Origin: Ruminococcus sp.
GTDB taxonomy: Bacteria; Bacillota; Clostridia; Oscillospirales; Ruminococcaceae
Assembly: GCA_021199305.1 (NCBI GenBank)
Contig: JAJQIH010000043.1
Span: forward strand, 1-38,214
Direction of reading: 5' to 3'
DNA: 38,214 bases
Shown here: positions 2,757-32,463 of the stretch, in pieces
Position numbering within the stretch: the first letter of the stretch is position 1
How the letters are laid out: each line of letters opens with the position of its first letter
Position numbers and translations under genes: made by a program
Notes under the pieces: generated by a model
Seen by the model: the letters and a program-made list of their open reading frames with translations, nothing else
The model's database searches: none
Told to the model about the DNA's origin: nothing

Positions 2757-3083
2757 TTAATTTTCATCAGTCATAATCCTTATGATTTCACGATCGGTTT
2801 CAGCCATTCCGTAGCGAGCGGCACGTCCGACATTGTGAATCGTATTTTCAACGCCCTTTGCAGCAATACCCTTTTTACCACCTGTGTTTGGAACTACAAC
2901 GCTCTTTACATTTTTGACAATGTTTGCGCTCGCCTTTATTTTAACGCTTGCGGGAATACATCCCAGCGCTTTCCTTGCGAGAGCTGCCGCATAAGCGATA
3001 GCAATAGGCTCAGTGCACCCCATAGCAGGTACAAGCTCCTCGTGCAGAGTTTTCAGATATATGTCATACATTTTGTCAGTCAT
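2757..3083 (-). pseudogene. Internally deleted L-cysteine desulfidase / YhaM (UPF0597) remnant
   Basis: The 108-residue product joins the two ends of a family whose members usually have about 420-430 residues. Residues 1-68 match the N-terminus, with LVPAMGCTEPIAIAYAAA and the NIVKNVKSVVVPNTGG segment. Residues 72-108 match the C-terminus, with GVENTIHNVGRAARYGM and ETDREIIRIM. The roughly 320 residues between, including the other cluster and active-site cysteines of the full enzyme, are missing, yet the frame stays open. It has a ribosome site (GGGGAG) and a strong promoter, so it is probably transcribed and may be translated. Cysteine desulfidase activity is unlikely. The alternative, a functional mini-protein of this domain, cannot be ruled out. 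Confidence 0.75.
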
Positions 3084-3106
3084 AAAGCACTCCCCATTAA
3101 ATGTGC

Positions 3107-3166
3107 TTCCCTTAGTGAAAAGGGAACATCTCAATTTAATTATACACGTATCACAAAAAAAGTCAA
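3107..3166 (-). promoter_or_regulatory. Strong minus-strand promoter and leader hairpin
   Basis: On the minus strand a -35 box TTGACT (3161-3166) and a consensus -10 TATAAT (3139-3144) are 16 bp apart. The leader holds a 7 bp hairpin, TTCCCTT with AAGGGAA (3107-3113 and 3120-3126), just upstream of the ribosome site of the remnant gene. The promoter would drive the remnant and the glycosyltransferase behind it. Confidence 0.75.
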
Positions 3167-3280
3167 CAAATGAAGCAATCCACAAATGAAAAAAGAAAGT
3201 AAAAATTAACGACAGAATCTGTGCTTGTATGCGGGATTTCGACAGACATCCTCAAATACAGTCGTCAGCTCAAAAAATAC

Positions 3281-3309
3281 TTGCAAAACAAGGCCTTGTG
3301 TGGTAAAAT
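3281..3309 (+). promoter_or_regulatory. Promoter of the gatCAB operon
   Basis: A -35 TTGCAA (3281-3286) and a -10 TAAAAT (3304-3309) with a 17 bp spacer. It lies about 60 nt before the chosen gatC start. No terminator is visible between this site and the hairpin at 9301, so the four genes are probably one transcript. Confidence 0.7.
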
Positions 3310-3368
3310 ATATATTTAGTATGGGGTTTGTATACCCTTGTAAGTAAAAGATGAAAGGTGAAACTGCT

Positions 3369-3647
3369 ATGGATCTTGAAATGGTAAAGTATCTTGCGGA
3401 GCTTGGAAAGCTTAAGTTTACCGACGAGGAGCTTGAAAAGGTCGGCGAGGATATGACAAGCATTATTGAGCTTATGGACAAGGTTAAGGAAATTGATGTG
3501 GTTTACGACCCATATCTCGATAACAAGAATATATTCTTAAACGATTTGCGTGAGGACAAGAATGCAAAGAGCCTTGATACGCAAAAGCTTCTTTCTAACG
3601 CTAAGAATCAACAAAACTGCTTTGTTGTTCCGAAGGTAGTAGAATAG
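3369..3647 (+). CDS. gatC: Asp-tRNA(Asn)/Glu-tRNA(Gln) amidotransferase subunit GatC
   Basis: This is the small stabilising subunit of the GatCAB amidotransferase, which wraps around the GatA-GatB interface. The product is 92 residues, normal for the family, with the N-terminal helical pattern MVKYLAELGKLKFTDEELEK and the later FLNDLREDK segment that matches the family's conserved LR-D region. The ATG at 3369 is preferred over the one at 3351 because AAAGGTG (3353-3359) is then a ribosome site at correct spacing. The next gene, gatA, follows after 11 nt. Confidence 0.93.
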   Translation: MDLEMVKYLAELGKLKFTDEELEKVGEDMTSIIELMDKVKEIDVVYDPYLDNKNIFLNDLREDKNAKSLDTQKLLSNAKNQQNCFVVPKVVE

Positions 3648-3658
3648 GAGGGGCGTTT

Positions 3659-5110
3659 ATGGATATGAAAAATATAAGTCTTGCAAAGCTCCGTGAAGCG
3701 CTTGACCAGCGAAAGCTTTCAGCAAGAGAAGCTACGGAGTTTTATTTAAAGAGAATAAAAGAGTACGACGCAGATCTTGAGTGCTATATTACAGTAACCG
3801 AAGAAAAGGCGCTTGAGCAGGCGGATAAAGCGCAAAAGAGAATTGACGAGGGAAAGGCAAGCGCACTTACAGGCATTCCGATGGCAATAAAGGACAACAT
3901 TTGTACTGAGGGTGTTCTGACAACCTGTTCGTCTGAAATGCTTGAGGATTTTGTTCCGCCGTATAACGCAACCGTTATGCAAAAGCTTGAGGATGAAAAT
4001 ATCGTAATGCTCGGTAAGGTATCGCTCGATGAATTTGCTATGGGTGGTTCAACTCAGACGTCAGCCTTTAAAAAGACAAAAAATCCTTATGATAAATCAA
4101 GAGTTCCGGGCGGCTCGTCAGGCGGTTCGGCAAGTGCCGTTGGCGCAGATTTGTGTGCGGCGGCATTAGGCTCAGATACAGGCGGCTCGATAAGACAGCC
4201 TTCAAGCTTTTGCGGAGTTGTCGGTTTAAAGCCTACCTATTCGAGAGTTTCGAGATATGGACTTGTAGCGTTCGCTTCAAGCCTCGACCAGATAGGACCG
4301 CTTGCAAGAAGCAGCCGTGACTGCGCCGTTATTTTAAATTCAATCTGCGGCTTTGATATGCACGACGGTACAAGCTCAAGACGAGAGGTTCCTGATTTTA
4401 CAGCAAAAATCGGACAGGATATAAAGGGACTTAAAATCGCCCTTCCGAAGGAATTTTACGAGGAGGGAATTGACGACGAGGTAAGAAAGTGTGTTCTTAA
4501 AGCGGCTGACGATTTAAAGGCAATGGGTGCGACAATTGTCAACTGCTCGATGCCGTCGCTTAAATTTGCGATTCCTGCTTACTATCTGATTTCTTCCGCT
4601 GAAGCTTGTTCAAACCTTTCAAGATACGATGGAATCAAGTACGGCCACCGCTCTGCTGTTGGCGAAAGCTACGAGGACCTTATCAAGAACTCAAGAAGCG
4701 AGGGCTTTGGCGACGAGGTCAAGAGAAGAATACTTTTAGGTAACTACGCTCTTTCAAGCGGATATTACGACGCTTATTACGGAAAGGCAATGGCGCTGAA
4801 GCAGCTTATCAGAAAAGAATACAACGATATATTCGAGCAGTGCGACGTTGTTTTGACTCCTACCGCACCGACAACAGCATATAAGGTTCACGAAAATATA
4901 AGCGACCCTGTAAAGATGTATCAGGCGGATTTCTGCACGGTAACTGTAAATATCGCAGGACTTCCAGCAGTTTCAACTCCTTGCGGATACGACAAGCAGG
5001 GATTGCCGATTGGAATGTCGATAATCGGAAAGCAATTTGACGAGCAGACGGTAATTCAGGTCGCAGACGCTTATGAAGCAAGCTTTGAACGAGTTTTGCC
5101 AAAGCTTTGA
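3659..5110 (+). CDS. gatA: Amidotransferase subunit GatA (amidase signature)
   Basis: GatA hydrolyses glutamine and passes ammonia to GatB, which amidates the misacylated tRNA. The 483-residue protein is full length. The Ser-cisSer-Lys triad of the amidase signature is intact: Lys78 in MAIKDNICTEG, Ser153 in VPGGSSGGSA, and the nucleophile Ser177 in GSDTGGSIRQPSSFCG. The ribosome site is AGGAGGGG ahead of the ATG. It is the second gene of the operon, 26 nt before the fused gatB::aspS2 gene. No missing motif was seen, so it should be active as the glutaminase of the complex. Confidence 0.97.
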   Translation: MDMKNISLAKLREALDQRKLSAREATEFYLKRIKEYDADLECYITVTEEKALEQADKAQKRIDEGKASALTGIPMAIKDNICTEGVLTTCSSEMLEDFVPPYNATVMQKLEDENIVMLGKVSLDEFAMGGSTQTSAFKKTKNPYDKSRVPGGSSGGSASAVGADLCAAALGSDTGGSIRQPSSFCGVVGLKPTYSRVSRYGLVAFASSLDQIGPLARSSRDCAVILNSICGFDMHDGTSSRREVPDFTAKIGQDIKGLKIALPKEFYEEGIDDEVRKCVLKAADDLKAMGATIVNCSMPSLKFAIPAYYLISSAEACSNLSRYDGIKYGHRSAVGESYEDLIKNSRSEGFGDEVKRRILLGNYALSSGYYDAYYGKAMALKQLIRKEYNDIFEQCDVVLTPTAPTTAYKVHENISDPVKMYQADFCTVTVNIAGLPAVSTPCGYDKQGLPIGMSIIGKQFDEQTVIQVADAYEASFERVLPKL

Positions 5111-5136: not shown

Positions 5137-8007
5137 ATGAAAAATTCCAAATATATAACCGTCGTCGGACTTGAAATACACTCGGAGCTTTTGACAAATT
5201 CAAAGGTTTTCTGTACCTGTAACGCTGAGTTTGGCGGTGATCAGAATACAAGATGCTGTCCTGTTTGTTCGGGAATGCCTGGAACACTCCCTGTAATAAA
5301 TCAGACGGCGATTGAATATGCAGTTAAAGCAGGCTACGCTTTAAACTGCGAGATAAATAAGTTTTCGGTTTTTGACAGAAAGAATTACTTCTATCCGGAC
5401 CTTCCGAAGGCTTATCAGATTTCTCAGCTTTATTATCCTCTTGTCGGACCTGGAAAGGTACCGATTGAGGTAAACGGCAACAAGAAGGAAATAAGAATAA
5501 ACCATATACACGTCGAGGAGGACGCTGGAAAGCTTGTCCACGACGACTATAACGGAGTTTCGCTCGCAGACTATAACCGTTGCGGCATTCCGCTTATTGA
5601 AATTGTAACCGAGCCTGATATGAACTCCGCTGAGGAGGCTATGGCTTTTGTCGAGCAGGTTTCCTTGCTTTTGCGTTATGCTGGAGTCAGCGACTGTAAA
5701 ATGGAGCAAGGCTCATTAAGATGTGACGTAAACATTTCAATTATGAAGCCTGACGACAAGGAGTTTGGAACCCGTGCGGAGATTAAAAACTTAAACTCTA
5801 TAAAGAGCGTCGGCAGAGCTATTGAATACGAGGAGCGCAGACAGGCGTTGTTGCTGGAAGCTGGCAAGAAGGTTATTCAGGAAACAAGGCGATACGATGC
5901 AAACAGAGATACGACAAAGTCGATGAGAACCAAGGAAAACGCTCACGATTACCGCTATTTCCCAGAGCCTGACATTCTGCAGGTAAACCTTACAGACGAG
6001 CAGTTGGCTGAAATCAAGGCAAAGCTTCCTGAAATGCCACAGCAGCGTTTTAAGAGATACACCGAGCAGTACGGCTTGTCGGCGGTCGATTCGCAGATTT
6101 TAATTAACACAAAGGCGATTTCCGACTTCTTTGATGAAGCGTTAAAAACTCACAACAATCCGAAATCTGTGTCAGCGTTTATTCTGACAGAGTTTATGCG
6201 TAGAGTTAATTTAGGCGAAATTGATATTGACAACATAAAGTTCTCACCATCTGACCTTGCTAAAATTGTAAAGCTTTCAGATGAGGAGAAAATCTCTAAA
6301 AACGACGCCAAGGCTGTGTTCAGAGAGCTTGCCGAAAATGGCGGCGACCCTGAAAAAATTGCTGCCGACAAGGGCTTTATCATAACGATTGATTTGGATA
6401 AGGTCGATGCTGAAATCGATGCCGTACTTGCGGCAAATAACGCTCAGGCCAAGCAGTACGCAAACGGCGAAAAGAAGGTTTTCGGCTTTCTTATGGGTCA
6501 ATGTACAAAAGCACTAAAGGGTGTTGCAACGCCAAAAATCATAAAAGAGCATTTAGAGAGCAAGCTCGATTCTTTAACTCCTCAGCAGGAAAGCGCTGAC
6601 AGCGAGCAGCAGGGCACTCAGGAGTTTACAACCGACAGCCTGACAAAGTACGAAAATGCTGACGCTTACAAGCCAAAGGCGAGCGATGAGTTTTTCTCAC
6701 TTGTCGGCGGTGAAAATGTTCTTTCAGAATTCAAGCTGACAGACGCTACCGAGCATATCGGCGAGCAGATAAGTCTCAGAGCTTGCGTTCATAAGATAAG
6801 AAATATGGGTAAGGTATCGTTTATATACCTCAGAACCGGAGAATATGTTATTCAGGCGGTATATAGCGATAAGTGCAATGATTCTATAAAGGGACTTCGT
6901 GAAGGACATTTCGTTAGCGTAGAGGGAACTGTAAATGAAAATCCAAAGGACCCGATTGGAGTAGAGATTGTTTTAAGCGGCTTGAAGCTTATAAGCGAGC
7001 CGAAGGAGGAGTATCCTCTTAAAATCTCTCAGAAGAAGCTCGATTGCTCGATTGAGGTAAACCTCGACAACAGAAGCGTATCGCTCAGAAATCCTTATGA
7101 GCGAGCGATATTCAAGCTTCAGGAGGGACTCGTTCACGGAATGCACGAATTTATGCGTGCGAACGGCTTTACTGAGATTCACACTCCGAAGATAGTAGCT
7201 CAGGGAGCTGAGGGCGGAGCCAATATATTTAAGATTGACTACTTCCAGAAGCCGGCGTTCTTGAATCAGTCGCCTCAGTTTTACAAGCAGACGGCAGTTG
7301 CGTTTTTCGACAGAGTTTACGAGATAGCGCCTGTTTACCGCGCGGAAAAGCACGCTACAAGCCGTCATATAAACGAGTATATAGGACTTGACTTTGAAAT
7401 GGGATATATTGACAGTATGTACGATGTAATGAACATGGAAATTGCAATGCTTCGTCATATTATGTCATATCTCAAGGAAAACTATCAATACGAGCTTGAG
7501 CTTTTGAATGCGGATGTTCCTGAAATCGGAGAGGTTCCGACAATTAAGTTCAAGGATGCGCTTACACTTTTAAGAGGAAAGAGCGTTAATACAAAGTTTG
7601 ACCTCGACCCAGAGGACGAGGTAAAGCTCGGCGAATACGCAAAGGAAAAATACAATTCAGACTTTATTTTCATAACTCATTTTCCAAGCTCCAAGCCGCC
7701 GTTTTACGCAATGGACAGCAGAGAGGATCCAAGAGATGCATATAAATTTGACCTGTTGTTCAGAGGACTTGAAATAACGTCGGGAGGACAGAGAATACAC
7801 GATTACGATGAGCAGATAGCAAAGCTCAAGCGTCAGGGACTTGATCCTGCTGACTTTGCAAGCTACCTTGAAGCTCATAAGTATGGACTTCCTCCGCACG
7901 GCGGACTGGGAATCGGACTTGAACGTCTTCTGATGAAGCTTCTGAAGCTTTCCAACATTCGTTCGACATCTATGTTCCCGAGAGATATAAACAGATTGCT
8001 TCCATAA
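5137..8007 (+). CDS. GatB fused to archaeal-type, probably non-discriminating aspartyl-tRNA synthetase
   Basis: One open frame of 956 residues encodes two complete enzymes. Residues 1-480 are GatB: the kinase-like catalytic domain with zinc cysteines C26, C28, C41 and C44, the HVEEDAGK segment, and the C-terminal YqeY-like tail ending at GFLMGQCTKALKG. A Gln/Ser/Glu-rich linker spans about 478-525. Residues 530-956 are an AspRS of archaeal/eukaryotic type: an OB-fold anticodon domain, motif 1 near 663-687, motif 2 with Arg735 in VYRAEKH, and motif 3 with Arg930 in GLGIGLER, with no bacterial GAD insertion. His552 and Pro606 sit where archaeal studies place the residues that allow charging of both tRNA(Asp) and tRNA(Asn). 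The inferred role is to make Asp-tRNA(Asn) and hand it directly to the GatCAB site. No stop or restart signal is visible at the junction. Confidence 0.93.
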   Translation: MKNSKYITVVGLEIHSELLTNSKVFCTCNAEFGGDQNTRCCPVCSGMPGTLPVINQTAIEYAVKAGYALNCEINKFSVFDRKNYFYPDLPKAYQISQLYYPLVGPGKVPIEVNGNKKEIRINHIHVEEDAGKLVHDDYNGVSLADYNRCGIPLIEIVTEPDMNSAEEAMAFVEQVSLLLRYAGVSDCKMEQGSLRCDVNISIMKPDDKEFGTRAEIKNLNSIKSVGRAIEYEERRQALLLEAGKKVIQETRRYDANRDTTKSMRTKENAHDYRYFPEPDILQVNLTDEQLAEIKAKLPEMPQQRFKRYTEQYGLSAVDSQILINTKAISDFFDEALKTHNNPKSVSAFILTEFMRRVNLGEIDIDNIKFSPSDLAKIVKLSDEEKISKNDAKAVFRELAENGGDPEKIAADKGFIITIDLDKVDAEIDAVLAANNAQAKQYANGEKKVFGFLMGQCTKALKGVATPKIIKEHLESKLDSLTPQQESADSEQQGTQEFTTDSLTKYENADAYKPKASDEFFSLVGGENVLSEFKLTDATEHIGEQISLRACVHKIRNMGKVSFIYLRTGEYVIQAVYSDKCNDSIKGLREGHFVSVEGTVNENPKDPIGVEIVLSGLKLISEPKEEYPLKISQKKLDCSIEVNLDNRSVSLRNPYERAIFKLQEGLVHGMHEFMRANGFTEIHTPKIVAQGAEGGANIFKIDYFQKPAFLNQSPQFYKQTAVAFFDRVYEIAPVYRAEKHATSRHINEYIGLDFEMGYIDSMYDVMNMEIAMLRHIMSYLKENYQYELELLNADVPEIGEVPTIKFKDALTLLRGKSVNTKFDLDPEDEVKLGEYAKEKYNSDFIFITHFPSSKPPFYAMDSREDPRDAYKFDLLFRGLEITSGGQRIHDYDEQIAKLKRQGLDPADFASYLEAHKYGLPPHGGLGIGLERLLMKLLKLSNIRSTSMFPRDINRLLP

Positions 8008-8023: not shown

Positions 8024-9280
8024 ATGATTAAGAAAATACTTGCTTTATTGCTGTCGGTTATGCTGACATTCACGCTGTTTACCGCTTGCACGGACGACGA
8101 GGATTCGTCAAGCGAAAGCTCCTCATCCTCTTCCGAAGCTGATAGCGATTCATCGGACGATGAGGATACTGACGAAGAGGAAGAAACAACGGAAATAGTT
8201 GAAGCCAGTCTTACAATAGACGGCGAGGAGATTGATACCACAGACCTCGTTATGTTTACGATTGGCGACAACTACGAAGTAACCTTCGACGAGTTCAGAT
8301 ATAACTATTACTACTTTATGTCACAATACGGTTCCAGCTACGGAGTTACCGAAGATGATATGGCTGATCTTACCGAAGAGGAGCAGGACGAAAAGTTCAC
8401 AGTCTTTAAAAACTACCTCGTTCAGTTTATAATGAGCACCTATACCTATCTGCAATATGCAGAGGATAATGGTATAGAGCTTACAGAGGACGAGCTTCAG
8501 GAGTGCGAGGACGAAATTGCCGACCTTCAGGAGGAGCAGGGCGACGATTATGAGGATTACCTCAAGAGCGCCTATCTGACGGAGGATTATCTCAGAAAGC
8601 TTGTAAATCAGTCGCAGATTGCCGACAAGGTAAGAAGCTCCTTCGAGCTTACTGACGACGAGTTTATCGAGATTGCAAAGACGGACCTTTATCAGGTTAA
8701 AACCCTTCTTGTTCCTTACGGCTACGACCTGACGCCAAGTGATGAGGATCTTGAAGAAATGGGAGTTGACGACTTCGATTCGCTTACAAATTCTGTAAAG
8801 ATGACACTTTTGGTTTCCACCTATACTGACCTGTCTGACGATGAGCAGGAGGAGCAAAGCGAAAAGGCTCTGGAGCATATAACAAATCTCGTTGACAGAG
8901 CAAACGACGGCGAGGACTTTGACGACCTTATCGAGGAGTATGGCTTTGACGGCGGAATGACAACCTACAGCGGCGGATATGTAGTTGGAGATTTCTATAC
9001 CTCTTACGGAGATACCTTTGTAGATACGCTGTTTGACCTTGATATTGATGAAATCAGCGAGCCTTATGAATTCACTTATGGCTATATGGCGCTTAAGAGA
9101 GTAGAAATTGACGAGGATTATATCAGAGATAACCTTGAAAACGATACTGACGACGACGATTCGTTCAAGGAAGAATACGAGGACGAATACGAATACAAAA
9201 CTCTCCAGGAAGTTATGGACACAATGAGCATTGAGGAAACTGATATTCTCACCAATTTAAGCTACGGCGATTTAACCTAA
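8024..9280 (+). CDS. Acidic PrsA/SurA-like lipoprotein (putative extracellular foldase)
   Basis: A 418-residue exported lipoprotein. The signal peptide ends in the lipobox LFTAC, with Cys22 as the lipidated residue. A Ser/Asp/Glu-only stretch follows (about 24-56) as a flexible spacer. The rest has the helical N-terminal layout of SurA/PrsA chaperones, including EYEVTFDEFRYNYYYF-like and YLTEDYLRKLVNQSQIA-like segments, and a C-terminal part with GGMTTYSGGYVVGDFY that resembles a degenerate parvulin domain. The whole protein is strongly acidic. A prolyl isomerase active site is not clearly preserved, so it may be a holdase only. It is 16 nt behind gatB::aspS2 with ribosome site AAAGGA, which suggests cotranscription. 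Confidence 0.7.
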   Translation: MIKKILALLLSVMLTFTLFTACTDDEDSSSESSSSSSEADSDSSDDEDTDEEEETTEIVEASLTIDGEEIDTTDLVMFTIGDNYEVTFDEFRYNYYYFMSQYGSSYGVTEDDMADLTEEEQDEKFTVFKNYLVQFIMSTYTYLQYAEDNGIELTEDELQECEDEIADLQEEQGDDYEDYLKSAYLTEDYLRKLVNQSQIADKVRSSFELTDDEFIEIAKTDLYQVKTLLVPYGYDLTPSDEDLEEMGVDDFDSLTNSVKMTLLVSTYTDLSDDEQEEQSEKALEHITNLVDRANDGEDFDDLIEEYGFDGGMTTYSGGYVVGDFYTSYGDTFVDTLFDLDIDEISEPYEFTYGYMALKRVEIDEDYIRDNLENDTDDDDSFKEEYEDEYEYKTLQEVMDTMSIEETDILTNLSYGDLT

Positions 9281-13489: not shown

Positions 13490-15424
13490 ATGAAAATCAC
13501 CGATTTGCTTTCAAAGAAAGCAATCAAGCTCGGCGCTTCACCAAAAGACAAAAACGAAGCGATTGATATTCTGGTATCATTGCATGAAGCTGCCGAAAAC
13601 ATCAGCGACAAGGAAACCTATAAGAAAGGAATCCTTGCAAGAGAAGCGTCTGGTTCAACAGCGGTAGGAGAAGGAATTGCTATTCCGCACGCTAAAAATG
13701 CGGCGGTAGTAAAGGCTTCGCTGTCAGCAATGACAGTGCCAGATGGAGTTGACTACGAGGCGCTTGACGGAAAGCCGTCAAATCTGTTCTTTATGATAGC
13801 GGCCCCTGAAAAGGGCGGAGACGTTCATCTTGAAATGCTCTCTCGATTGACAGTTATGTTAATGGACGCAGAATTCAGAAACAAGCTTTTGTCAGCTTCA
13901 GACGCAGATGAGTTTCTGAAGATTATCGACGAAAAGGAAATTGAAAAATACGGAAAGGAAGAGGAATCAGTGGAAGCAAAGGGCGAAAAGTTTATAGTTG
14001 CCGTTACAGCTTGCCCAACTGGTATTGCTCATACTTTTATGGCTGCTGAGGCACTTGAGCAGGCAGGGGAGAAGCTTGGTATTAAGGTAAAGGTAGAAAC
14101 AAATGGCTCAGGCGGAGCTAAGAATGTAATTACAGCTGCAGAAATTGCAGAGGCTGACGGAGTTATCATTGCTGCAGACAAGAATGTCGATATGCCGAGA
14201 TTCAGCGGCAAGAAGGTTCTGATAACAAAGGTTTCAGACGGAATACACAAGCCAGAGGAGCTTATAAACACAGTATTGACAGGAGATGTTCCTGTATACA
14301 AGGCTGACGAAGCGGCTGTTAAGGCAGCATCGTCGAGCGGCGAAAAAGAAGGTATAGGCAGACAGATTTACAAGCACCTTATGAACGGAGTTTCAAATAT
14401 GCTTCCGTTCGTTGTTGGCGGCGGAATTTTAATAGCTCTTGCGTTCCTGATTGATACAATCGCAGGAAACGCTGAAGCGGGCGATTCGTTTGGTACTGTA
14501 AACGGTGTTGCTGCATGGTTTAAGGGAATAGGAAACTATGCGTTTAACTTTATGCTTCCGGTTTTAGCAGGCTTTATCGCTAAGAGCATAGCTGACAGAC
14601 CTGGTATGATGATAGGCTTTGCAGGTGGTTATATAGCTTCAGTTGGCGCAACATTTAACTTCCACGACACAGATTCGTGGGTAAGCGCAGGATTTTTAGG
14701 CGCATTGCTCGCAGGCTTTATCGGCGGTTACTTAACTTTAGGTCTTGAGAAGCTTGCAGACAAAGTCCTTCCAAAGTCATTGGACGGAATCAAACCAGTT
14801 TTGGTTTATCCTCTGATTGGACTGCTGCTGGTAGCTATTGTAATGTGTGCTATTGACCCGGTTGTCGGTATTATAAATTCAGGACTTAATACATTCCTTG
14901 ACAGTATCGGAACAGGCTCGAAGATATTCTTAGGCTGCGTACTCGGCGGAATGATGTCGATAGATATGGGCGGACCTTTCAACAAGGCTGCTTACACCTT
15001 CGCAACCGTCGGACTTGCGGCGCAAACTGACGCCAGCTTTGAAATTATGGCGGCAGTTATGGTTGGCGGTATGGTACCACCTATCGCTTGCGCAATCGGC
15101 ACAACCTTCTTTAAGAGCAAGTACACAGAGGGCGAAAGAAAGTCGACCGTTGTAAACTACATCTTAGGACTTTGCTTTATCTCAGAGGGCGCAATTCCAT
15201 TTGCAGCAGCTGACCCATTAAGAGTAATACCTTCTTGTATAGTAGGCTCTGCAATCGCAGGCGGTATGTCAATGGGCTTTGGCTGTATGCTGAGAGCTCC
15301 TCACGGAGGATTGTTCGTACTCCCTGTTATTGATAACGCTTTAGGCTACTTAGCTGCTTTGATAGTAGGCTCGGTAGTAGCGGGAGTTATGATGTCGCTT
15401 CTTAAAAGAAAGAAAACAGCATAA
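13490..15424 (+). CDS. fruA: Fructose-specific PTS EIIABC permease
   Basis: A 644-residue three-domain transporter that imports fructose and phosphorylates it at C1. Domain EIIA (1-150) has the phosphorylated His67 in GIAIPHAKNA. Domain EIIB (about 167-265) has the phosphocysteine Cys175 in VTACPTGIAHTFMAAEAL. Domain EIIC (about 285-640) is a polytopic membrane channel with the conserved GGPFNKAAYTF and ISEGAIPFAAADP loops. The order A-B-C in one chain is that of the Firmicute FruA. All phosphorylation residues are intact. It takes phosphate from HPr, encoded next. Confidence 0.96.
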   Translation: MKITDLLSKKAIKLGASPKDKNEAIDILVSLHEAAENISDKETYKKGILAREASGSTAVGEGIAIPHAKNAAVVKASLSAMTVPDGVDYEALDGKPSNLFFMIAAPEKGGDVHLEMLSRLTVMLMDAEFRNKLLSASDADEFLKIIDEKEIEKYGKEEESVEAKGEKFIVAVTACPTGIAHTFMAAEALEQAGEKLGIKVKVETNGSGGAKNVITAAEIAEADGVIIAADKNVDMPRFSGKKVLITKVSDGIHKPEELINTVLTGDVPVYKADEAAVKAASSSGEKEGIGRQIYKHLMNGVSNMLPFVVGGGILIALAFLIDTIAGNAEAGDSFGTVNGVAAWFKGIGNYAFNFMLPVLAGFIAKSIADRPGMMIGFAGGYIASVGATFNFHDTDSWVSAGFLGALLAGFIGGYLTLGLEKLADKVLPKSLDGIKPVLVYPLIGLLLVAIVMCAIDPVVGIINSGLNTFLDSIGTGSKIFLGCVLGGMMSIDMGGPFNKAAYTFATVGLAAQTDASFEIMAAVMVGGMVPPIACAIGTTFFKSKYTEGERKSTVVNYILGLCFISEGAIPFAAADPLRVIPSCIVGSAIAGGMSMGFGCMLRAPHGGLFVLPVIDNALGYLAALIVGSVVAGVMMSLLKRKKTA

Positions 15425-15441
15425 TATAGACTTTCCTTGAT

Positions 15442-15486
15442 ATGCCCGTCAGGTGCGAATAACTCGCACCTGACTCGGGTATTTTA
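15442..15486 (+). terminator. Hairpin between fruA and ptsH
   Basis: A long stem with the perfect 9 bp core CAGGTGCGA/TCGCACCTG (15450-15458 with 15464-15472) and an outer CCCG/CGGG extension is followed only by ATTTTAAAA. It is probably a partial terminator or a processing site that sets the ratio of fruA to ptsHI transcripts. Confidence 0.7.
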
Positions 15487-15519
15487 AAACAACCAAACAA
15501 CCAAAAGGAGTAGAGAATA

Positions 15520-15783
15520 ATGATAACCAAATCGTATAAAATTGTAAATGAGCAGGGACTTCATATGCGTCCTGCAGGACTTGTTGCGGCGGAGCTTGGA
15601 AAATTTCAAAGCGAGGTAACAATTAAGTTTAATGGAAATGATGTAAACGCCAAGAGCATAATGAATCTTATGGCAGCTTGTATCAAATGCGGCTCTGAGA
15701 TTGAGATTATTTTTAACGGAAGCGACGAGCAGCAGGCAAGCGAGAAGTTCGAGGAGCTTTATGCTAACAACTTCGGCGACTAA
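15520..15783 (+). CDS. ptsH: Phosphocarrier protein HPr
   Basis: The 87-residue general PTS phosphate carrier. His15 in EQGLHMRPAGL takes phosphate from enzyme I and gives it to EIIA domains. Ser46 in NAKSIMNLMA is the site of regulatory HPr kinase in Firmicutes, so catabolite control through a CcpA-type system is likely, though the kinase is not in the window. The ribosome site is AAAAGGAG. It lies 95 nt after fruA beyond the hairpin and 25 nt before ptsI. Confidence 0.97.
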   Translation: MITKSYKIVNEQGLHMRPAGLVAAELGKFQSEVTIKFNGNDVNAKSIMNLMAACIKCGSEIEIIFNGSDEQQASEKFEELYANNFGD

Positions 15784-15808
15784 GAGATAAAACAGGAGGA
15801 GTGGGCGC

Positions 15809-17521
15809 ATGAACAAGTTTAGCGGAATTGGAGCGTCAGGTGGAATTGCTATAGGAAATGCGGCGATTGTTAAGGAAGCTGTAGTTTCTTATGAGAAAAA
15901 GGTAATTGACAATCCTGAGCAGGAAATAAAAAGGCTTGAAGCTGCTTTTGAAAGATTCAAGGAAAAGACTGAAAAAATGGCTTTGAGCATTGAAGAAAAG
16001 GTAGGCGAGAAGGAAGCCGAAATTTTGAGAGGACATATTGCCATCGCTTTTGATCCTGCGCTTTCCGACGAAATAAACAAGCTTATAAAAAGTGGAAAAT
16101 GCGCAGAGGAAGCTGTTGACAGCGTTTGCGAGCAGTTTATTGCAATGTTTGCTTCAATCCCTGATGAAATGATGCGCCAGAGAGCAACTGATATTTCTGA
16201 TGTAAAGACAAGGCTTTTACAGATACTCACAGACAACGAGCCGACAGATATTTCGGGACTTGCGCCAGATACTATTTTGGTAGCCGACGACTTGACTCCG
16301 TCGATGACAGCGGGAATTGACAAGGAAAACGTACTGGGAATTTTAACAAAAACAGGCGGAAAAACCTCCCACTCGGCAATTTTAGCGAGAGCGCTTGAAA
16401 TCCCAGCGGTTTTGTCAGCACCTGATGCTGTAGATGCTTTAACCGACGGTGTGGTAGTAATTGTCGATGGTGAAAAGGGAGAGGTAATAATAGACCCCGA
16501 CGAACAGACAGTTGAAAAGTACAAAAAGCTTCGTGAGGAATATATTCAAGCGAAAAAGGAGCTTTCAAAGTTTATTGGCAGGAAGACTCAGACAGCAGAC
16601 GGCGAGAGCGTTATGCTTTTTGGAAATATCGGAAATCCTGAGGAAGCGAAAACTGTTAAGAGCTTCGACGGCGAGGGAGTAGGACTTTTCAGAACGGAAT
16701 TTCTGTTTATGGAAAATTCCTCTGCGCCTACAGAGGAGGAACAGTTCGAAGCCTACAAAGCGGCGGTTGAAGCACTCGACGGCGGTAGCGTTATAATCAG
16801 AACGCTTGACGTTGGCGGAGATAAGGAGATTCCATACCTCGGACTTGAAAAGGAAGAGAATCCATTTTTGGGTTATCGTGCAGTAAGATTCTGTCTTAAC
16901 CGTGATGATATTTACAATACTCAGCTTCGTGCGCTGCTTCGGGCATCAGCTTACGGAGATATTAAGATAATGATACCGTTAGTTACTTGCGTTGACGAGC
17001 TATTAGCTGTAAAGGAAAAACTCTTTACACTAAAATCCGAGCTTGACAGCGAAGGAATACCCTACAACAAGGACATAGAGGTAGGCGTAATGATTGAAAC
17101 TCCTGCCGCTTGCGTGTCAGCGGATATATTAGCTAAGGAAGCGGACTTTTTCAGCATTGGCACCAACGACCTGACGCAGTATACAATGGCGGTAGACAGG
17201 GGAAACGCAAAGGTAGCGTATTTGTATTCTGAATATAATATCGCAGTTTTGCGTTCTATCAAGAGAATCATAGAATGTGCGAAAAAAGAGGGAATTGTCT
17301 GCGGAATGTGCGGTGAAGCTGCTGCTGACCCGAACCTCATTCCACTTCTGATCTCCTTTGGACTTGACGAATTTTCAGTAAGCGCAACCAGCATTCTTAA
17401 GACGAGAAAAATTATTTCACTCTGGTCGAAGGATGATGCTGACGAGCTTGCAAATAAGGCTTTGAGCCTGACTCGTGAGAGCGAAATCTCAGCACTTTTA
17501 AAGGCAAATGCAAGAAAGTAA
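15809..17521 (+). CDS. ptsI: PTS enzyme I (phosphoenolpyruvate-protein phosphotransferase)
   Basis: A 570-residue enzyme I that autophosphorylates with phosphoenolpyruvate and feeds HPr. The swivel domain carries His188 in GGKTSHSAILARALEIPAV. The C-terminal TIM barrel has the PEP-binding segments LFRTEFLFM, IIRTLDVGGDK, and IGTNDLTQYTMAVDR, and the catalytic Cys in GMCGEAAADP near the end. The length is normal. The ribosome site is AGGAGG. As the last gene of the fructose cluster it is followed by a strong terminator. Confidence 0.97.
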   Translation: MNKFSGIGASGGIAIGNAAIVKEAVVSYEKKVIDNPEQEIKRLEAAFERFKEKTEKMALSIEEKVGEKEAEILRGHIAIAFDPALSDEINKLIKSGKCAEEAVDSVCEQFIAMFASIPDEMMRQRATDISDVKTRLLQILTDNEPTDISGLAPDTILVADDLTPSMTAGIDKENVLGILTKTGGKTSHSAILARALEIPAVLSAPDAVDALTDGVVVIVDGEKGEVIIDPDEQTVEKYKKLREEYIQAKKELSKFIGRKTQTADGESVMLFGNIGNPEEAKTVKSFDGEGVGLFRTEFLFMENSSAPTEEEQFEAYKAAVEALDGGSVIIRTLDVGGDKEIPYLGLEKEENPFLGYRAVRFCLNRDDIYNTQLRALLRASAYGDIKIMIPLVTCVDELLAVKEKLFTLKSELDSEGIPYNKDIEVGVMIETPAACVSADILAKEADFFSIGTNDLTQYTMAVDRGNAKVAYLYSEYNIAVLRSIKRIIECAKKEGIVCGMCGEAAADPNLIPLLISFGLDEFSVSATSILKTRKIISLWSKDDADELANKALSLTRESEISALLKANARK

Positions 17522-17876: not shown

Positions 17877-20800
17877 ATGAAAAAGAAATGGTACGAGAGA
17901 TTAGGCACATTTCTTGTTTCACTCATCGTAGCAGTAACGACGCTTTCAATGAGCTTCAGCTCGGTAGCGGTTGCTGAAGAGACGACCGACTTAACGCCGT
18001 ACATTACTGACGTTACGTTGATTGTTGATGGAACGGAATATGATGCCAGCACCTCTAGCGGTATCAAGCCGACCTCGTCGCTGAAATTCGTAGTGGATTT
18101 CGCGGAGATCAACACTCAGGAGCAAAGCTTGCAATTCCCGTCTAACGGTGTTATGACATATCAGCTGCCTAATGACGGAACTCTCGTGTACGAAGCAGAA
18201 TCAGGAGTAATTTACAATACTCAGGATGACATTTGGGGCGATACAGTTGGTACATATACAATTACCGCCGATGGATTGGTTACCCTTTACTTTAAGGAAG
18301 GCTATACCGATTATTATCCTAATATTGATGCAAGCTTCTATTTCTACGCAACGCTGAGCGAGAGCTCTTACAACAGCGGCGAAGAAACAACCATCAAGTT
18401 TACAGACGAGGTAAGCGTTACTGTAGAATTTGACCACAACTCAAATCTCGACGTTACCAAGAAGATTGTAAGCTATGATGAAACGACTCATACTATTACT
18501 TATGAGATTGTTGCTTCAAACACAGGAAGCGGTAGTGTAAAGGATATTACCATTACAGATAAGCTTGGCGCTAATTTGTCACTCGTTGGAGCAAGTGATT
18601 TAAGCACAGCCTTCACATCTGTTGCAAGTGGAACTGTTGGAACTATCACTTATGATACAAGTGAGAACGCTTACAACACAGAATACCCGACAAACTACTT
18701 GATCAACATTTCAGAGCTTGGTGCTGACTCAAGTGTTACATTTACATATCAGGCAGTAGTTACTGACGAAGCGTTCTTAAACGCTGACGCTTACGGAAAT
18801 CTCCAGTATGTAAATAATAAGGTTTCTGCAACGGCTACTGACACCAATAAGGAAGAGGGAAGTCAGGATGTCGAGGTTAAGGAAAAGACAGTTGAGTTCA
18901 ACGAGGAAACATACATCTGGAAGAGCAAGGACGCAACAGCTGTTGACGACGATACCATTTCATGGTCGTTTATGGTCAACAATTCCGCAGGTTTTGACGT
19001 ATCAGGCAGCACAGCAAAGGACACATTGAAGTCTGACGCTTTAAGCTATGATACTTCAACTCCGCTTACATTAAACTGGTATGATGCAGAGGGTAACCTT
19101 GTAGGAACTACTACTCTTGCGTGGGACGACGTTCTGGCAGCTGACGGAAGAAGCTTCTCTTACACATTCCCGTCAGGTAGCGGAACTTACGCTTACGAGT
19201 TCGTTTACCAGACAAACGTTGACACTTCCCTGATCGTTGGATCTGGATATGTTTCAAACAGCGGTACTTATGACGGCGGCGGAAGCGGAACAACATCTGA
19301 GTCTGTTGGCGTTGAAGGAGATACAGATTCCGAACTTAAAAAGGAAACAACCGACAGCGGCGACCAGTGGAATACTTTGGGCTGGAAGATTACAGCTACG
19401 GTTACAACTGACGGCGAAAATGATCTTGCCTTCTACATTACAGATACAATAGAAAGCAGTTATACAACTTATAGAGTTTTCAATACATTGGACGAAAGCT
19501 CATTTAAGGTAACAATCAACGACGTTGAAGCTACAAACGGCACAGATTATACATTAGTATATGATCAGGCGTCAGGAACTTTTGCAGTATACTTCAACTC
19601 AACTACTCAGGCAGGCTCGTACCTGAAGGCTTCATCAGATCCTTACGTTATTGTTATTGAATACAATACTATCGTAAATTCTGAGCTTCAGGAAAACGGA
19701 TGGCAGTTCCAAAACACCGCATACTCATATACTGGCGGCGTTAAGGAGCTTACAGCTTCTGCTAAGCAGCTGCTGGTTGATAAAACTATAACTGTCGAAA
19801 AGAAAAATGTATCCAAGAGCAGCGACGGAACTTCGGCAGACTATAGAATTTGCATCAACGATTATATCGACTACCAGAACCAAGGCGGTAAGGATTTAGG
19901 AACCGACCCGATTGTGGTTTACGACTATTTTGATACAGATTTGTTGGAGCTTGTTGACGGAAGCGTTGCAATCTATCACGGTACATCCTGGGATTATGCT
20001 TATTGGAATGACGATGGCACAATGACTGTAACCGTAGAAACTCTCTACGATGATAATAACAACCCAGTAGGACTTAAGTTTACAACAAGCGATATTCCTT
20101 CAACAAACACAACAGATAAGATTTATATCTGCTACACATTAAAGCTCAAGGACGAATATATCAGCGAGGGCGGAAGCTATACGCTGACAAACACTGCTAC
20201 AGTTACTCAGAACAGCACAGAGCTTGGTTCTGACGATGTATCAGTAACATACTCGCCTGATCTTCTCGATAAGAGCTATTCAAGCAAGGCTACAAGCAGC
20301 AACAACTACACAGGAACATTTACAATTGATGTAAATGCAGCAGAAGCAGATCTTTCAAGCGGCGATACAATTACAGTTTGCGACCAGCTTGACGATATGA
20401 TGACGCTTGACCTTGATTCAATCGTTGTAAGAAAAGACAGCGCTTGGGGCGAGATTCTTACAACAGGCGTTACAGAAACTTACGACGCAGATACAAAGCT
20501 TCTGTCAATCACAGTTCCTGATGAAACACACGTTGTAATTACTTATAACGTAACATTCAGAGGCGATGCTGGAACAACCGGAACATTTACCAATAAAGCT
20601 TGGATTGAAGGCAAGACTTCAATTTCAGAAGAGGTAGAAGGCAATGTAACGTTCGATGATCAGGATAGCGGCGCACACGCAGGCGGTTCAACTCCGTTCT
20701 TCTACATTGTAAAGTTTGACGAAGCTGACCTTACAAACAGACTTGCAGACGCAGTATTCGGTCTGTATTATCTGGACGGAACACTGATTGATACAGCAAC

Positions 20801-22919
20801 AACCAACTCAAACGGTGTTGCAGAATTCCAGGGCAATTACGCAGACGGTGATTACTACGTTCAGGAAATTACCGCTCCTTCGGGATATGCGCTTGATCCT
20901 ACAAAGCACTACTTCTCACTTGCAACCGATAGCTCAAACGGCTACCACAAGCTATACTACGGCGATTCTATAAACATCACAAACCGCAAGACTCAGTTTA
21001 CAGTAAACAAGGTTGACGAGAACGGAACTGGCGTAGCAGGAGCTACTCTTGAAATTGTTGATAGCTCAACTGGTGATGTTATCTATACTTACGTTACAAC
21101 AGGCGATTCGATTACAGTAGGTCACATTGTTGACGGAACTTATATTCTGAGGGAAACTAACGCTCCTGCAGGATATGAGCTGGCTGATTCGATTGAATTT
21201 ACTATCGAAGACGGACACCTCAAGGGCGATAGCACAAGCATCGACCTGACAAATTCCATCATCACAATGGTTGATAAGGAAGAGGTAACTACAACAGAAG
21301 CTACCACAGAAGAGGAAACTACAACTGAGGTTACAACTACAGAAGTAACAACAACTGAAGCAACTACTACAGAAGTAACTACTACTGAAGCTACTACAAC
21401 AGAAGCTACTACAACTGAGGTTACAACCACAGAAGTAACTACAACTGAAGCAACCACGGATGAAACTACCGAGGCAACCACCGAAGTAACATACAATCCG
21501 TCACTGAAGAAGGTAGTAAGCGGAAGCACAACAGATGCAGAGTTTACATTTAACATTGCACCGTCAGGCAATAAGCTTGATACAGTAGCAACAATAACTC
21601 TCAAGGACGGAGAGACAAAGGAAATCACAGGCCTTACAAGCGGACAGGAATATGTAATTTATGAGGTTGGCGCAAACGGCTACGATGTAGCATTTGACGA
21701 CGGCAGCAGCGAATATGTATTCACATATGATTCAAGCGTAGAAGGACTTGTATTCACAGCAACAAACACAGAATACTCTGGAATCAAGCTGAAGAAGACA
21801 GTAGTTGAGAACGACATTGTTCAGATTGCAGATCCAAGCGTAACATTCGACTTTGAGATTCAGGATGAACAGGGTAACGTAATCAAGACTGTAACAGTAG
21901 CACAGGGTGACGAGATAAGCATAGACGGTAAGGACTTTACAAACGGAGCTAAGTACATACTTGTAGAAAAGACGCAGAGCAAGTACGAGCTTACAGTAAA
22001 GGTAGACGGAACCGTTTCAGCAGATAACAGCTTCACCTACACAAAGGATACAGTAGTAGAAATCGAAGCAGTAAACGCTTACACAGAGATAATTACAACT
22101 ACTGAAACAGATGTTACTACAACCGATGAAACGACAGATGTAACCACAGACGTAACTACAGACGCTACGACTGAGGAAGAAACAACCACAGAAGTAACGA
22201 CAGATGCTACAACTGAGGAAGAAACAACCACAGAAGTAACGACTGATGCTACAACTGAGGAAGAAACAACCACAGAAGTAACAACTGAAGCTACTACTGA
22301 GGAAGAAACAACCACTGAGGTTACAACAGAAGAAGAAACCACTACTGAAGTAACCACGACCGAAGCTACAACTACCGAAGCTACTACGACAGAGGTAACC
22401 ACAACTGAAGCAACTACAACAACTACTACAACTACAGCAGAAGTTACAACCACTACAGCTGAAGTTACAACTACAACGACAACCACCGCAGAAGCTACTA
22501 CAACAACCACCACAACTGCGGCTGAGGAAACTACAACCACAACCATTACAACAACCGAAGCTACAACTGAGGTTACTACAACCACCACAGCAGAGGAAAC
22601 TACCGAAACCACGACTGAATCTGACAGGGATAAGCTTATCAGATACATCGAGGAGGACTTAAACGAGGGTGATTACACACCTGAGAGCTGGGAGGTTTAC
22701 CAGGAGGTTCTGGAAAGAGCTAAGCTTGTATTGGCAGCTGGCGACGAAAACGAGATATCAGCAATTCTTGAAGAGCTTGAAGAAGCAAGAAATAAGCTTG
22801 TTCTCGGCGCAAGCGTAAATACCGGTGTAGCGTCAGAGGTATCTGTTGGAATATTCGTACTCGCCGGATTGATCGGTGTAGCGGCGATAACCAAGAGAAA
22901 ACGCGACGATGATGAATAA
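17877..22919 (+). CDS. Large cell-surface adhesin with SpaA/Cna-B domains, Thr/Glu stalks and C-terminal anchor
   Basis: A 1680-residue exported protein. The signal peptide covers about 1-33. Residues about 40-930 form serial Ig-like domains of the adhesin and DUF11/isopeptide D2 type (for example EIVASNTGSGSVKDITITDKL). Two SpaA/Cna-B domains follow, with isopeptide-type Lys946 and Lys1045 and the E-T/I-x-AP-x-GY motif in each. The stalk at 1136-1205 is Thr/Glu repeats, two further beta domains lie at about 1206-1405, and a second long stalk spans 1406-1581. A FIVAR-like helical pair (1583-1642) precedes SVNTG (1646-1650), a hydrophobic helix and a KRKRDDDE tail, which resembles an LPXTG sorting signal with a changed motif. 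The inferred role is adhesion or matrix binding on the wall; the ligand is unknown. It is a monocistronic unit with its own promoter and terminator. Confidence 0.85.
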   Translation: MKKKWYERLGTFLVSLIVAVTTLSMSFSSVAVAEETTDLTPYITDVTLIVDGTEYDASTSSGIKPTSSLKFVVDFAEINTQEQSLQFPSNGVMTYQLPNDGTLVYEAESGVIYNTQDDIWGDTVGTYTITADGLVTLYFKEGYTDYYPNIDASFYFYATLSESSYNSGEETTIKFTDEVSVTVEFDHNSNLDVTKKIVSYDETTHTITYEIVASNTGSGSVKDITITDKLGANLSLVGASDLSTAFTSVASGTVGTITYDTSENAYNTEYPTNYLINISELGADSSVTFTYQAVVTDEAFLNADAYGNLQYVNNKVSATATDTNKEEGSQDVEVKEKTVEFNEETYIWKSKDATAVDDDTISWSFMVNNSAGFDVSGSTAKDTLKSDALSYDTSTPLTLNWYDAEGNLVGTTTLAWDDVLAADGRSFSYTFPSGSGTYAYEFVYQTNVDTSLIVGSGYVSNSGTYDGGGSGTTSESVGVEGDTDSELKKETTDSGDQWNTLGWKITATVTTDGENDLAFYITDTIESSYTTYRVFNTLDESSFKVTINDVEATNGTDYTLVYDQASGTFAVYFNSTTQAGSYLKASSDPYVIVIEYNTIVNSELQENGWQFQNTAYSYTGGVKELTASAKQLLVDKTITVEKKNVSKSSDGTSADYRICINDYIDYQNQGGKDLGTDPIVVYDYFDTDLLELVDGSVAIYHGTSWDYAYWNDDGTMTVTVETLYDDNNNPVGLKFTTSDIPSTNTTDKIYICYTLKLKDEYISEGGSYTLTNTATVTQNSTELGSDDVSVTYSPDLLDKSYSSKATSSNNYTGTFTIDVNAAEADLSSGDTITVCDQLDDMMTLDLDSIVVRKDSAWGEILTTGVTETYDADTKLLSITVPDETHVVITYNVTFRGDAGTTGTFTNKAWIEGKTSISEEVEGNVTFDDQDSGAHAGGSTPFFYIVKFDEADLTNRLADAVFGLYYLDGTLIDTATTNSNGVAEFQGNYADGDYYVQEITAPSGYALDPTKHYFSLATDSSNGYHKLYYGDSINITNRKTQFTVNKVDENGTGVAGATLEIVDSSTGDVIYTYVTTGDSITVGHIVDGTYILRETNAPAGYELADSIEFTIEDGHLKGDSTSIDLTNSIITMVDKEEVTTTEATTEEETTTEVTTTEVTTTEATTTEVTTTEATTTEATTTEVTTTEVTTTEATTDETTEATTEVTYNPSLKKVVSGSTTDAEFTFNIAPSGNKLDTVATITLKDGETKEITGLTSGQEYVIYEVGANGYDVAFDDGSSEYVFTYDSSVEGLVFTATNTEYSGIKLKKTVVENDIVQIADPSVTFDFEIQDEQGNVIKTVTVAQGDEISIDGKDFTNGAKYILVEKTQSKYELTVKVDGTVSADNSFTYTKDTVVEIEAVNAYTEIITTTETDVTTTDETTDVTTDVTTDATTEEETTTEVTTDATTEEETTTEVTTDATTEEETTTEVTTEATTEEETTTEVTTEEETTTEVTTTEATTTEATTTEVTTTEATTTTTTTTAEVTTTTAEVTTTTTTTAEATTTTTTTAAEETTTTTITTTEATTEVTTTTTAEETTETTTESDRDKLIRYIEEDLNEGDYTPESWEVYQEVLERAKLVLAAGDENEISAILEELEEARNKLVLGASVNTGVASEVSVGIFVLAGLIGVAAITKRKRDDDE
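21284..21492 (+). repeat. Thr/Glu codon repeat, first stalk
   Basis: Degenerate tandem repeats of ACT/ACA-rich and GAA/GAG codons encode TTEVTT and TTEATT units (about 70 residues). Synonymous variation between units is high, which argues against very recent slippage. Likely a rigid, possibly O-glycosylated spacer. Confidence 0.9.
22092..22620 (+). repeat. Thr/Glu codon repeat, second stalk, with 42 bp tandem units
   Basis: Within this tract a 42 bp unit encoding DATTEEETTTEVTT recurs about four and a half times from 22161, nearly identical in DNA, so length change by recombination is likely. The remainder is TTEATT, TTAEVT and pure Thr runs. All units keep the reading frame. Confidence 0.92.
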
Positions 22920-24078: not shown

Positions 24079-25500
24079 ATGAAGTACGATCCAAAATCGC
24101 TTAAAGCGGAAGAATTTATTAACCATCAGGAAATACTCGACACAATCGAGTATGCAGAGAAGCACAAGGACGACTACGAGCTTTGTATGTCGCTTGCAAA
24201 GAGAGCTATCGACTGTAAGGGTTTAACCCACAGGGAAGCTGCAGTTTTGCTCGAATGTGAAATCCCGGAGGTTCTGGAGGAAATCAAAAAGAGCGCAATC
24301 GCCGTCAAGGAACGCCTTTACGGAGACAGAATTGTTATGTTTGCGCCGCTCTACCTCTCTAACTATTGCGTAAACGGCTGTACATACTGTCCGTACCACC
24401 ATTGCAACAAGCACATTGCAAGAAAGAAGCTTACTCAGGAGGAGATTAAAGCTGAGGTAATAGCTTTGCAGGATATGGGACATAAAAGACTTGCTATCGA
24501 AGCAGGCGAGGACCCGGTAAACAATCCTATCGAGTATATTCTGGAAAGCATCAAAACAATTTACAGCATCAAGCATAAAAACGGAGCTATAAGACGTGTA
24601 AACGTAAATATCGCTGCAACTACTGTTGAGAACTACAGAAAGCTTAAAGAAGCAGGAATTGGTACTTATATACTCTTTCAGGAAACCTACCACAAGGAGG
24701 ACTACGAGAAGCTTCATCCAACAGGACCAAAGCACAATTACGCTTATCATACAGAAGCTATGGACAGAGCTATGGAGGGCGGAATTGACGACGTTGGTAT
24801 AGGAGTTTTGTTCGGACTTGAGCGTTACAGATACGACTTTGTAGGACTTCTCATGCACGCAGAGCACTTGGAAGCCGCACACGGAGTAGGCCCTCACACA
24901 ATTTCCGTTCCTAGAATCTGCTCGGCAGACGATATCGACAAGAGCAATTTTGAAAACGCAGTAAGCGACGAAATGTTTGAGAAAATTGTTTCGGTAATCA
25001 GAATTGCCGTACCTTATACGGGAATGATTATCTCCACAAGAGAATCCAAAAAGGCAAGAGAAAAGGTTTTGAAGCTTGGAATTTCTCAAATTTCAGGCGG
25101 TTCAAGAACGAGCGTCGGCGGCTATGTAGAGCCTGAAACTGAGGAGGATAACTCAGCGCAGTTTGATGTTTCGGATACAAGATCATTAGACGAGGTTGTA
25201 GGCTGGCTCTTGGAACTCGGATATATACCGAGCTTCTGTACAGCATGCTACAGAGAGGGAAGAACAGGAGACAGGTTTATGTCGCTTTGCAAGAGCGGTC
25301 AGATTGCTAACTGCTGTCAGCCTAATGCGCTGATGACGCTGAAGGAATATCTTATGGACTATGCAAGCGAAAATACACGCCGTTTGGGCGAAGCTTTGAT
25401 TGCAAGTCAGCTTGAAAAAATTCCTAATCCGAAAACCCGTGAAATTGCAAGACAAAACATCGAGAAGATTGAAAAGGGCGAGCGTGATTTCAGATTTTAA
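24079..25500 (+). CDS. hydG: [FeFe]-hydrogenase H-cluster radical SAM maturase HydG
   Basis: HydG cleaves tyrosine and builds the Fe(CO)2(CN)-cysteine synthon of the H-cluster. The 473-residue protein has the radical SAM motif CX3CX2C at Cys97, Cys101 and Cys104 in SNYCVNGCTYC, inside a TIM barrel. The second cluster motif, CX2CX22C, is Cys387, Cys390 and Cys413 and separates HydG from the related ThiH. The RTSVGGY and TACYREGRTGD segments are conserved. The ribosome site is AAAGGAG. hydF follows 20 nt later. All key residues are present. Confidence 0.97.
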   Translation: MKYDPKSLKAEEFINHQEILDTIEYAEKHKDDYELCMSLAKRAIDCKGLTHREAAVLLECEIPEVLEEIKKSAIAVKERLYGDRIVMFAPLYLSNYCVNGCTYCPYHHCNKHIARKKLTQEEIKAEVIALQDMGHKRLAIEAGEDPVNNPIEYILESIKTIYSIKHKNGAIRRVNVNIAATTVENYRKLKEAGIGTYILFQETYHKEDYEKLHPTGPKHNYAYHTEAMDRAMEGGIDDVGIGVLFGLERYRYDFVGLLMHAEHLEAAHGVGPHTISVPRICSADDIDKSNFENAVSDEMFEKIVSVIRIAVPYTGMIISTRESKKAREKVLKLGISQISGGSRTSVGGYVEPETEEDNSAQFDVSDTRSLDEVVGWLLELGYIPSFCTACYREGRTGDRFMSLCKSGQIANCCQPNALMTLKEYLMDYASENTRRLGEALIASQLEKIPNPKTREIARQNIEKIEKGERDFRF

Positions 25501-25520
25501 CCTGACAAGGGGGCTTTGAT

Positions 25521-32418: not shown

Positions 32419-32463
32419 AAATTATATTGACGGGGCTTTGCCCTGTTAAAGGAGGTGCATATA

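Follow-up and report, generated by a model that had tools for sequence, protein, structure and literature searches.

Among the described systems, the closest to the locus treated here is the asparagine transamidosome of Thermus thermophilus, in which the non-discriminating aspartyl-tRNA synthetase ND-AspRS2, the amidotransferase GatCAB and tRNA(Asn) come together (structure 3kfu). According to PMC9499178, its components are separate and are held by the tRNA. By chain count, 3kfu contains 4 AspRS and 2 GatB chains. In PMC4206432, T. thermophilus and D. radiodurans are stated to have AsnRS and GlnRS as well; complementation of the E. coli Asn auxotroph JF448 was carried out there with the B. bacteriovorus AspRS and GatCAB. 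The locus described here comes from a 1.74-Mb draft genome of Ruminococcus sp. (assembly GCA_021199305.1; 44 contigs, 99.96% complete), and lies on contig JAJQIH010000043.1, of which positions 1 to 38,214, forward strand, were analysed as a whole (hereafter the window). It encodes the same two enzymes, with an AspRS of the same archaeal-type family, in a bacterium which, like T. thermophilus, has both a bacterial and an archaeal-type AspRS; here, however, the link is covalent, since gatB and aspS2 form one gene, and the ratio of the two enzymes is forced to 1:1. We read this fusion as a covalent asparagine transamidosome, with a probability of about 0.75. The genes of the operon and the parts of the fusion are as follows.

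3351..3647, forward strand: gatC, first gene of the operon, 98 aa (TIGR00135 54.5 bits against a cut-off of 47.1; Pfam GatC 49.8 against 23)
3659..5110, forward strand: gatA, glutaminase subunit, 483 aa (TIGR00132 616 bits against 481; Pfam Amidase at 24-465)
5137..8007, forward strand: gatB-aspS2 fusion, 956 aa, ATG start, one unbroken frame including the stop codon, kept in relatives
5137..6573, forward strand: GatB part, residues 1-479, catalytic domain and YqeY-like tail (Pfam GatB_N and GatB_Yqey; Foldseek)
6574..6624, forward strand: variable tether, residues 480-496, probably flexible (low column conservation, low model confidence)
6625..6738, forward strand: strap, residues 497-534, with conserved L502, T503, Y505, N507, Y511 and P513, predicted to be ordered
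6739..8004, forward strand: archaeal-type AspRS part, residues 535-956, oligonucleotide-binding (OB) fold and class II core (PRK05159, TIGR00458)
6790..6792, forward strand: codon of His552, aligned with a Trp of 1b8a
6952..6954, forward strand: codon of Pro606, a position not conserved in the family

The first-pass annotation had proposed, from the sequence, that GatB and AspRS are fused in one polypeptide, and this holds: in the single frame of 956 aa, Pfam places GatB_N at 8-290, GatB_Yqey at 330-477, the tRNA_anti-codon OB fold at 546-617 and tRNA-synt_2 at 640-950, and together with NCBIfam it delimits two complete enzymes, GatB at about 5-479 and the archaeal-type AspRS at about 535-956. 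The borders that it had drawn, at 480 and 530, shift slightly, the end of GatB lying nearer 479 and the start of the synthetase core nearer 535. The GatB half passes the NCBIfam equivalogs TIGR00133 (529.8 bits, cut-off 314.8) and PRK05477.1-2 (615, cut-off 338), and in Foldseek it matches GatB of GatCAB and of the transamidosome entries 3kfu and 4wj3. The AspRS half passes PRK05159 (531 bits, cut-off 353) and TIGR00458 aspS_nondisc (394, cut-off 368.4), both of which are named "aspartate--tRNA(Asn) ligase"; its nearest solved sequence, and also its nearest fold, is T. thermophilus AspRS2 (1n9w/3kfu). Since gatC and gatA stand directly upstream in the order gatC-gatA-gatB/aspS2, with AGGAGG 5′ of the gatA start, the three subunits of the amidotransferase are all encoded in this operon, GatB being extended at its end by the synthetase.

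Independent support for the functional reading comes from the supply of Asn-tRNA and Gln-tRNA in the fused genomes. AsnRS was over its cut-off in none of the 15 same-genus genomes, the window's own included (two of the 15 are incomplete), and in none of 17 fused genomes, among which G002, G008 and G023 are less than 90% complete. In a second set it was found in 1 of 23 fused genomes and in 14 of 27 genomes with separate genes (both counts come from 50 of the best 80 named loci), so that the joined fused sets, which have one genome in common, give 1/39. For the cultured gut species R. bicirculans and R. callidus no AsnRS over cut-off was found, and no GlnRS was found in the 15 same-genus genomes. 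The window's own genome has two gatB genes, the second of which has its own gatA, and three genes over the PF00152 cut-off, namely the fusion, a bacterial AspRS and a presumed LysRS of 533 aa, with a fourth, sub-threshold match in a neighbouring frame; no AsnA was found in it, and two strong asnB-like genes were. Its bacterial AspRS, like those of G002, G003 and G019, carries RDLG where the AspRS(Asp/Asn) of P. aeruginosa has RDHG. As for the tRNA, four congeners together yielded five tRNA(Asn) genes of one and the same sequence, with U1-A72 and G73, and U1-A72 is what bacterial GatCAB requires according to PMC4206432 and PMC9976931. Taken together, the AsnRS and GlnRS negatives, the second gatA-gatB, the RDLG of the bacterial AspRS and U1-A72 suggest that the fused AspRS makes Asp-tRNA(Asn) and that its own GatCAB converts it. 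The fused operon is then probably the only route to Asn-tRNA(Asn) in these genomes, and the second, unfused GatCAB would mainly serve Gln-tRNA(Gln).

In the proposed mechanism, the operon would make a GatCAB whose GatB bears the archaeal-type AspRS as a C-terminal domain. This domain, presumably a dimer by homology, would load Asp onto tRNA(Asn), after which the 3′ end of the tRNA would shift to the active site of GatB within the assembly, and there ammonia derived from GatA would turn Asp into Asn ahead of release. That is to say, the tether would take the place of the tRNA-dependent docking of other systems, would fix synthetase and amidotransferase at 1:1, and would lower the chance of EF-Tu meeting Asp-tRNA(Asn); the merger probably serves to prevent any release of the mischarged tRNA. 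Non-discriminating charging, channelling, stoichiometry and the division of labour between the two amidotransferases are inferred. As to the fuller claim, that a large group of gut bacteria obtains Asn-tRNA(Asn) from this self-contained covalent transamidosome alone, with tether and strap orienting the hand-over at 1:1, and that it is one of two separately evolved welds in the order (GatB-AspRS2 and AspRS1-GatC), we put the odds at even.

The linker between the two enzymes, read earlier as one Q/S/E-rich stretch, has two parts. Residues 480-496 do look floppy: the top-residue frequency is 0.19-0.37 in the 43 fused rows, and residues 481-496 have a predicted local distance difference test score (pLDDT) below 50 in the full-length model. 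From 497 onward it is predicted to be ordered: the strap columns L502, T503, Y505, N507, Y511 and P513 have frequencies of 0.74-1.00 in the same rows, and the strap block reaches pLDDT 85-90 in the model of residues 497-956, which is better than the full-length one. The strap motif was not seen at the six separate-gene junctions that were read (L131, L159, L162, L160, L145 and L168), all of which are two-gene arrangements. A comparison of eight close pairs, with two rows entering twice, gives 199 base differences in the linker, 126 of them at codon position 3, so it is translated in this frame; the non-synonymous/synonymous counts of changed codons are 94/836 for GatB, 77/762 for AspRS and 65/93 for the linker. 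An internal start for a separate AspRS was also considered. In the window, none of ATG, GTG and TTG occurs in frame between residues 470 and 556, which leaves no separate start there; the first candidate is residue 557. An ATG in the linker or within the 17 codons after it is present in every one of the 43 fused rows, and pairing with the anti-Shine-Dalgarno sequence at these ATGs is mostly weak, reaching about -5 to -7 in a few relatives, where an internal AspRS start may exist.

The fusion is not confined to the window, and the search in relatives found it at several levels. It is full length in 13 of the 15 same-genus genomes, the window's own included, and the remaining two matches stop at a contig end; the closest relative (G006) is 97% identical, and two genomes from two other genera (G019 and G023) carry the fusion as well. 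When named genomes were scanned with the AspRS domain as query and the best 80 of the matching loci were taken, 42 were fused (4 of them without the N-terminal end) and 38 separate; the fused ones include the isolates R. bicirculans 80/3, with a complete chromosome, R. callidus ATCC 27760 and Ruminococcus sp. YE71. In the same family, 41 of 396 genomes, spanning 14 genus codes, hold an unbroken fusion, 3 of the 41 matches lacking the N-terminal end, and in an order-wide sample of 394 genomes a single match across both halves was seen only in the window's own (E up to 1e-150). A 42nd candidate in the family, G532, was rejected, its single match containing four stops and its DNA reading as two genes. 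Long apparent open frames at GatB matches were likewise rejected on reading the DNA, which shows separate frames in G016, G143, G408, G253, G329, G088, G611, G722, G625 and G558.

Several points weigh against the reading of the fusion as a covalent transamidosome. The first-pass annotation had taken His552 and Pro606 as a joint signature of non-discrimination. In the alignment they correspond to His and Pro in T. thermophilus AspRS2 and to Trp and Lys in 1b8a, the T. kodakarensis AspRS, and it is presumably these exchanges that mark non-discrimination. At the first position all 38 separate relatives and 41 of 43 fused rows have His, the other two having Tyr; at the second, Pro is confined to 3 of the 43 and 3 of the 38, the rest having F, Q, I, Y, R and others, so Pro606 is unusable as family evidence. 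The RDLG/RDHG residue presumably matters for discrimination too, RDLG being the discriminating type. One fused genome, G437, retains AsnRS, and the fusion is not needed for the indirect route because 13 of the 27 separate-gene genomes are without AsnRS. The association of fusion with AsnRS loss is clear in raw counts (among tree rows, AsnRS is missing from 33 of 34 with the fusion and from 13 of 24 with separate genes, three separate rows with AsnRS being among those dropped), but amounts to only 2 independent tree pairs. The window genome's own tRNA(Asn) was not recovered by the pattern search. Finally, the AspRS half is misfolded in the full-length model (root-mean-square deviation of about 23 Å to AspRS), and the model was therefore not used for the geometry of the two sites. 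Overall, the earlier idea of a tethered AspRS and GatCAB keeps the support of gene content, His552, RDLG and U1-A72, and loses that of Pro606.

Three other explanations can be set beside the covalent transamidosome. The fusion could be an error of sequencing or assembly that removed a stop codon or a frameshift, as might be thought of a 44-contig draft; however, the same frame recurs at full length through the genus except where contigs end, it is present in three isolates, and the codon-position bias runs throughout the linker, so this explanation has a negligible probability and is refuted as far as sequence allows. An unlikely but more serious view is that a stop codon was lost between operon neighbours and that the fusion concerns expression only, with two independent enzymes in balanced dosage and no channelling. 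It would fit the 25 of 38 separate loci where fewer than 400 bases separate gatB from the aspS2 downstream of it, often without a change of frame, the variable first part of the linker, and the repeated changes of the fused label on the AspRS and GatB trees (given below), by which separation may be tolerated or regained. Against this stand the retention of the fusion across 14 genus codes, a conserved strap motif with predicted order, and members of the same order that tether the same complex in another way.

It could also be that tRNA(Asp) is the sole or main substrate of the fused AspRS, and that the bacterial AspRS is the non-discriminating enzyme, feeding either GatCAB. Pro606, one of the two cited positions, is unconserved, and an archaeal-type AspRS can be discriminating, as in T. 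kodakarensis; but His552 is kept, the bacterial AspRS has the discriminating-type RDLG, there is no evident reason to tether a tRNA(Asp)-only enzyme to an amidotransferase, and both equivalogs passed by the AspRS half are named for the tRNA(Asn) ligase. We regard it as highly improbable, and the covalent transamidosome remains the preferred reading.

With regard to origin, gatB and aspS2 are adjacent separate genes in g3 (G016, G391) and g22 (G035); among the 38 separate named loci, 3 have gatB farther upstream than the 25 mentioned above, and 10 have no gatB within the stretch examined. The fused label needs at least 2 changes on the AspRS tree (p 0.022 for a single clade) and 3 on the GatB tree (p 7e-7), so both speak against one clade, and a single origin is not supported by the trees; the strap motif common to the fusions points instead to a single event followed by splits or exchange. 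Both are quick trees: the long branches L170, L172, L175, L179 and L180 were dropped for the p-value on the AspRS tree and for the AsnRS comparison above, L168 and L169 in addition on the GatB tree (seven in all), from which the ten loci without gatB were left out. The GatB and AspRS halves of the fused proteins of L133 and L161 are placed differently on the two trees, a hint that fused and separate genes may have swapped halves. In g16 (L021, L068, L069, L072 and L078), the neighbour of a GatB 57-59% identical to that of the window is an AspRS of bacterial rather than archaeal type, with the motif RDHG, as though GatB there had a different partner.

Around the operon, no Rfam element, T-box or other, was above its gathering score in the window; in the region 3100-3400 none was found at E up to 1, nor in ten relatives, and a T-box upstream of the operon was rejected on these scans. 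Directly downstream of the fusion lies the following gene.

8024-9280: peptidyl-prolyl isomerase-like gene, starting 16 bases past the stop codon of the fusion

On the reverse strand, between a glycosyltransferase gene and gatC, there is a 142-aa frame (2757-3185) apparently left over from a longer gene, its sole match being serine dehydratase alpha below threshold (22.1 against 26.4 bits). Elsewhere in the window, a protein with phosphotransferase enzyme IIA-IIB-IIC domains followed by an enzyme I-like, phosphoenolpyruvate-utilising protein forms a sugar phosphotransferase cluster (13490-17521); a 1680-aa protein with SpaA-type prealbumin-like domains is probably a surface protein (17877-22919); a radical SAM protein with a BATS domain followed by HydF probably represents hydrogenase maturation genes (24079-26714); and genes for a Cas3-like helicase/nuclease and Csd1 are probably part of a type I-C CRISPR cas operon (29971-35137).

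Compared with the known systems, the fusion stands apart in how it joins the two enzymes. The P. aeruginosa asparagine transamidosome (4wj3) has 4 GatB chains and, with 5 AspRS chains over 4wj3 and 4wj4, is probably 4:4; unlike the fusion it uses a bacterial-type AspRS and separate polypeptides. Since the fusion forces 1:1, it would resemble the P. aeruginosa assembly, though in type its AspRS matches Thermus AspRS2. In a Clostridia genome, an additional AspRS and GatCAB are likewise tied to Asn supply; in the available part of that source no fusion is described, and the genes are under T-box control, of which none was found here. Archaeal GatE and the GlnRS-YqeY fusions also place synthetase-like and GatB-like modules on one chain, and their NCBIfam models appear in the NCBIfam listing of the fusion protein; GatE has no more than an insertion domain, and GlnRS-YqeY no more than the tail domain, whereas both enzymes are complete here. 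A covalent link between AspRS and a GatCAB subunit is also found in other members of the order, where five long frames near gatB encode a bacterial-type AspRS of 692-771 aa with GatC at the C-terminal end (gatC score 48.6-92.3, cut-off 47.1).

L183, 3078-5357: AspRS-GatC frame, motif RDMG
L184, 4694-7009, reverse strand: AspRS-GatC frame, motif RDMG
L186, 4308-6401, reverse strand: AspRS-GatC frame, motif RDHG
L187, 4142-6379, reverse strand: AspRS-GatC frame, motif RDMG
L188, 4009-6087, reverse strand: AspRS-GatC frame, motif RDHG

These five were chosen for length from six long frames (L185 was left out), so that five of five is no rate, and all score below the cut-off of NCBIfam PRK12820, which from its model name we take to be an AspRS-GatC fusion. 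The window's fusion gives 85 bits with this model (cut-off 1379) and has no GatC domain among its Pfam matches. The earlier suggestion that the fusion is undescribed thus stands for the particular pairing, as no GatB-AspRS fusion was found in the open-access literature (subscription journals and preprints lay outside the search), and falls for tethering as such. That is to say, covalent joining of AspRS and GatCAB is known by name, while what is new is the attachment of an archaeal-type AspRS by way of GatB. The finding matters for how cultured gut species such as R. bicirculans and R. callidus are annotated. Channelling in cells and the ratio of the parts are usually argued from tRNA-dependent complexes of separate proteins, and a natural one-chain version makes the channelling of Asp-tRNA(Asn) testable. 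In AspRS-GatC a bacterial-type AspRS is joined by its C-terminal end to GatC, and in the window an archaeal-type AspRS sits on the C-terminal end of GatB; covalent linkage to GatCAB takes more than one form within one order.
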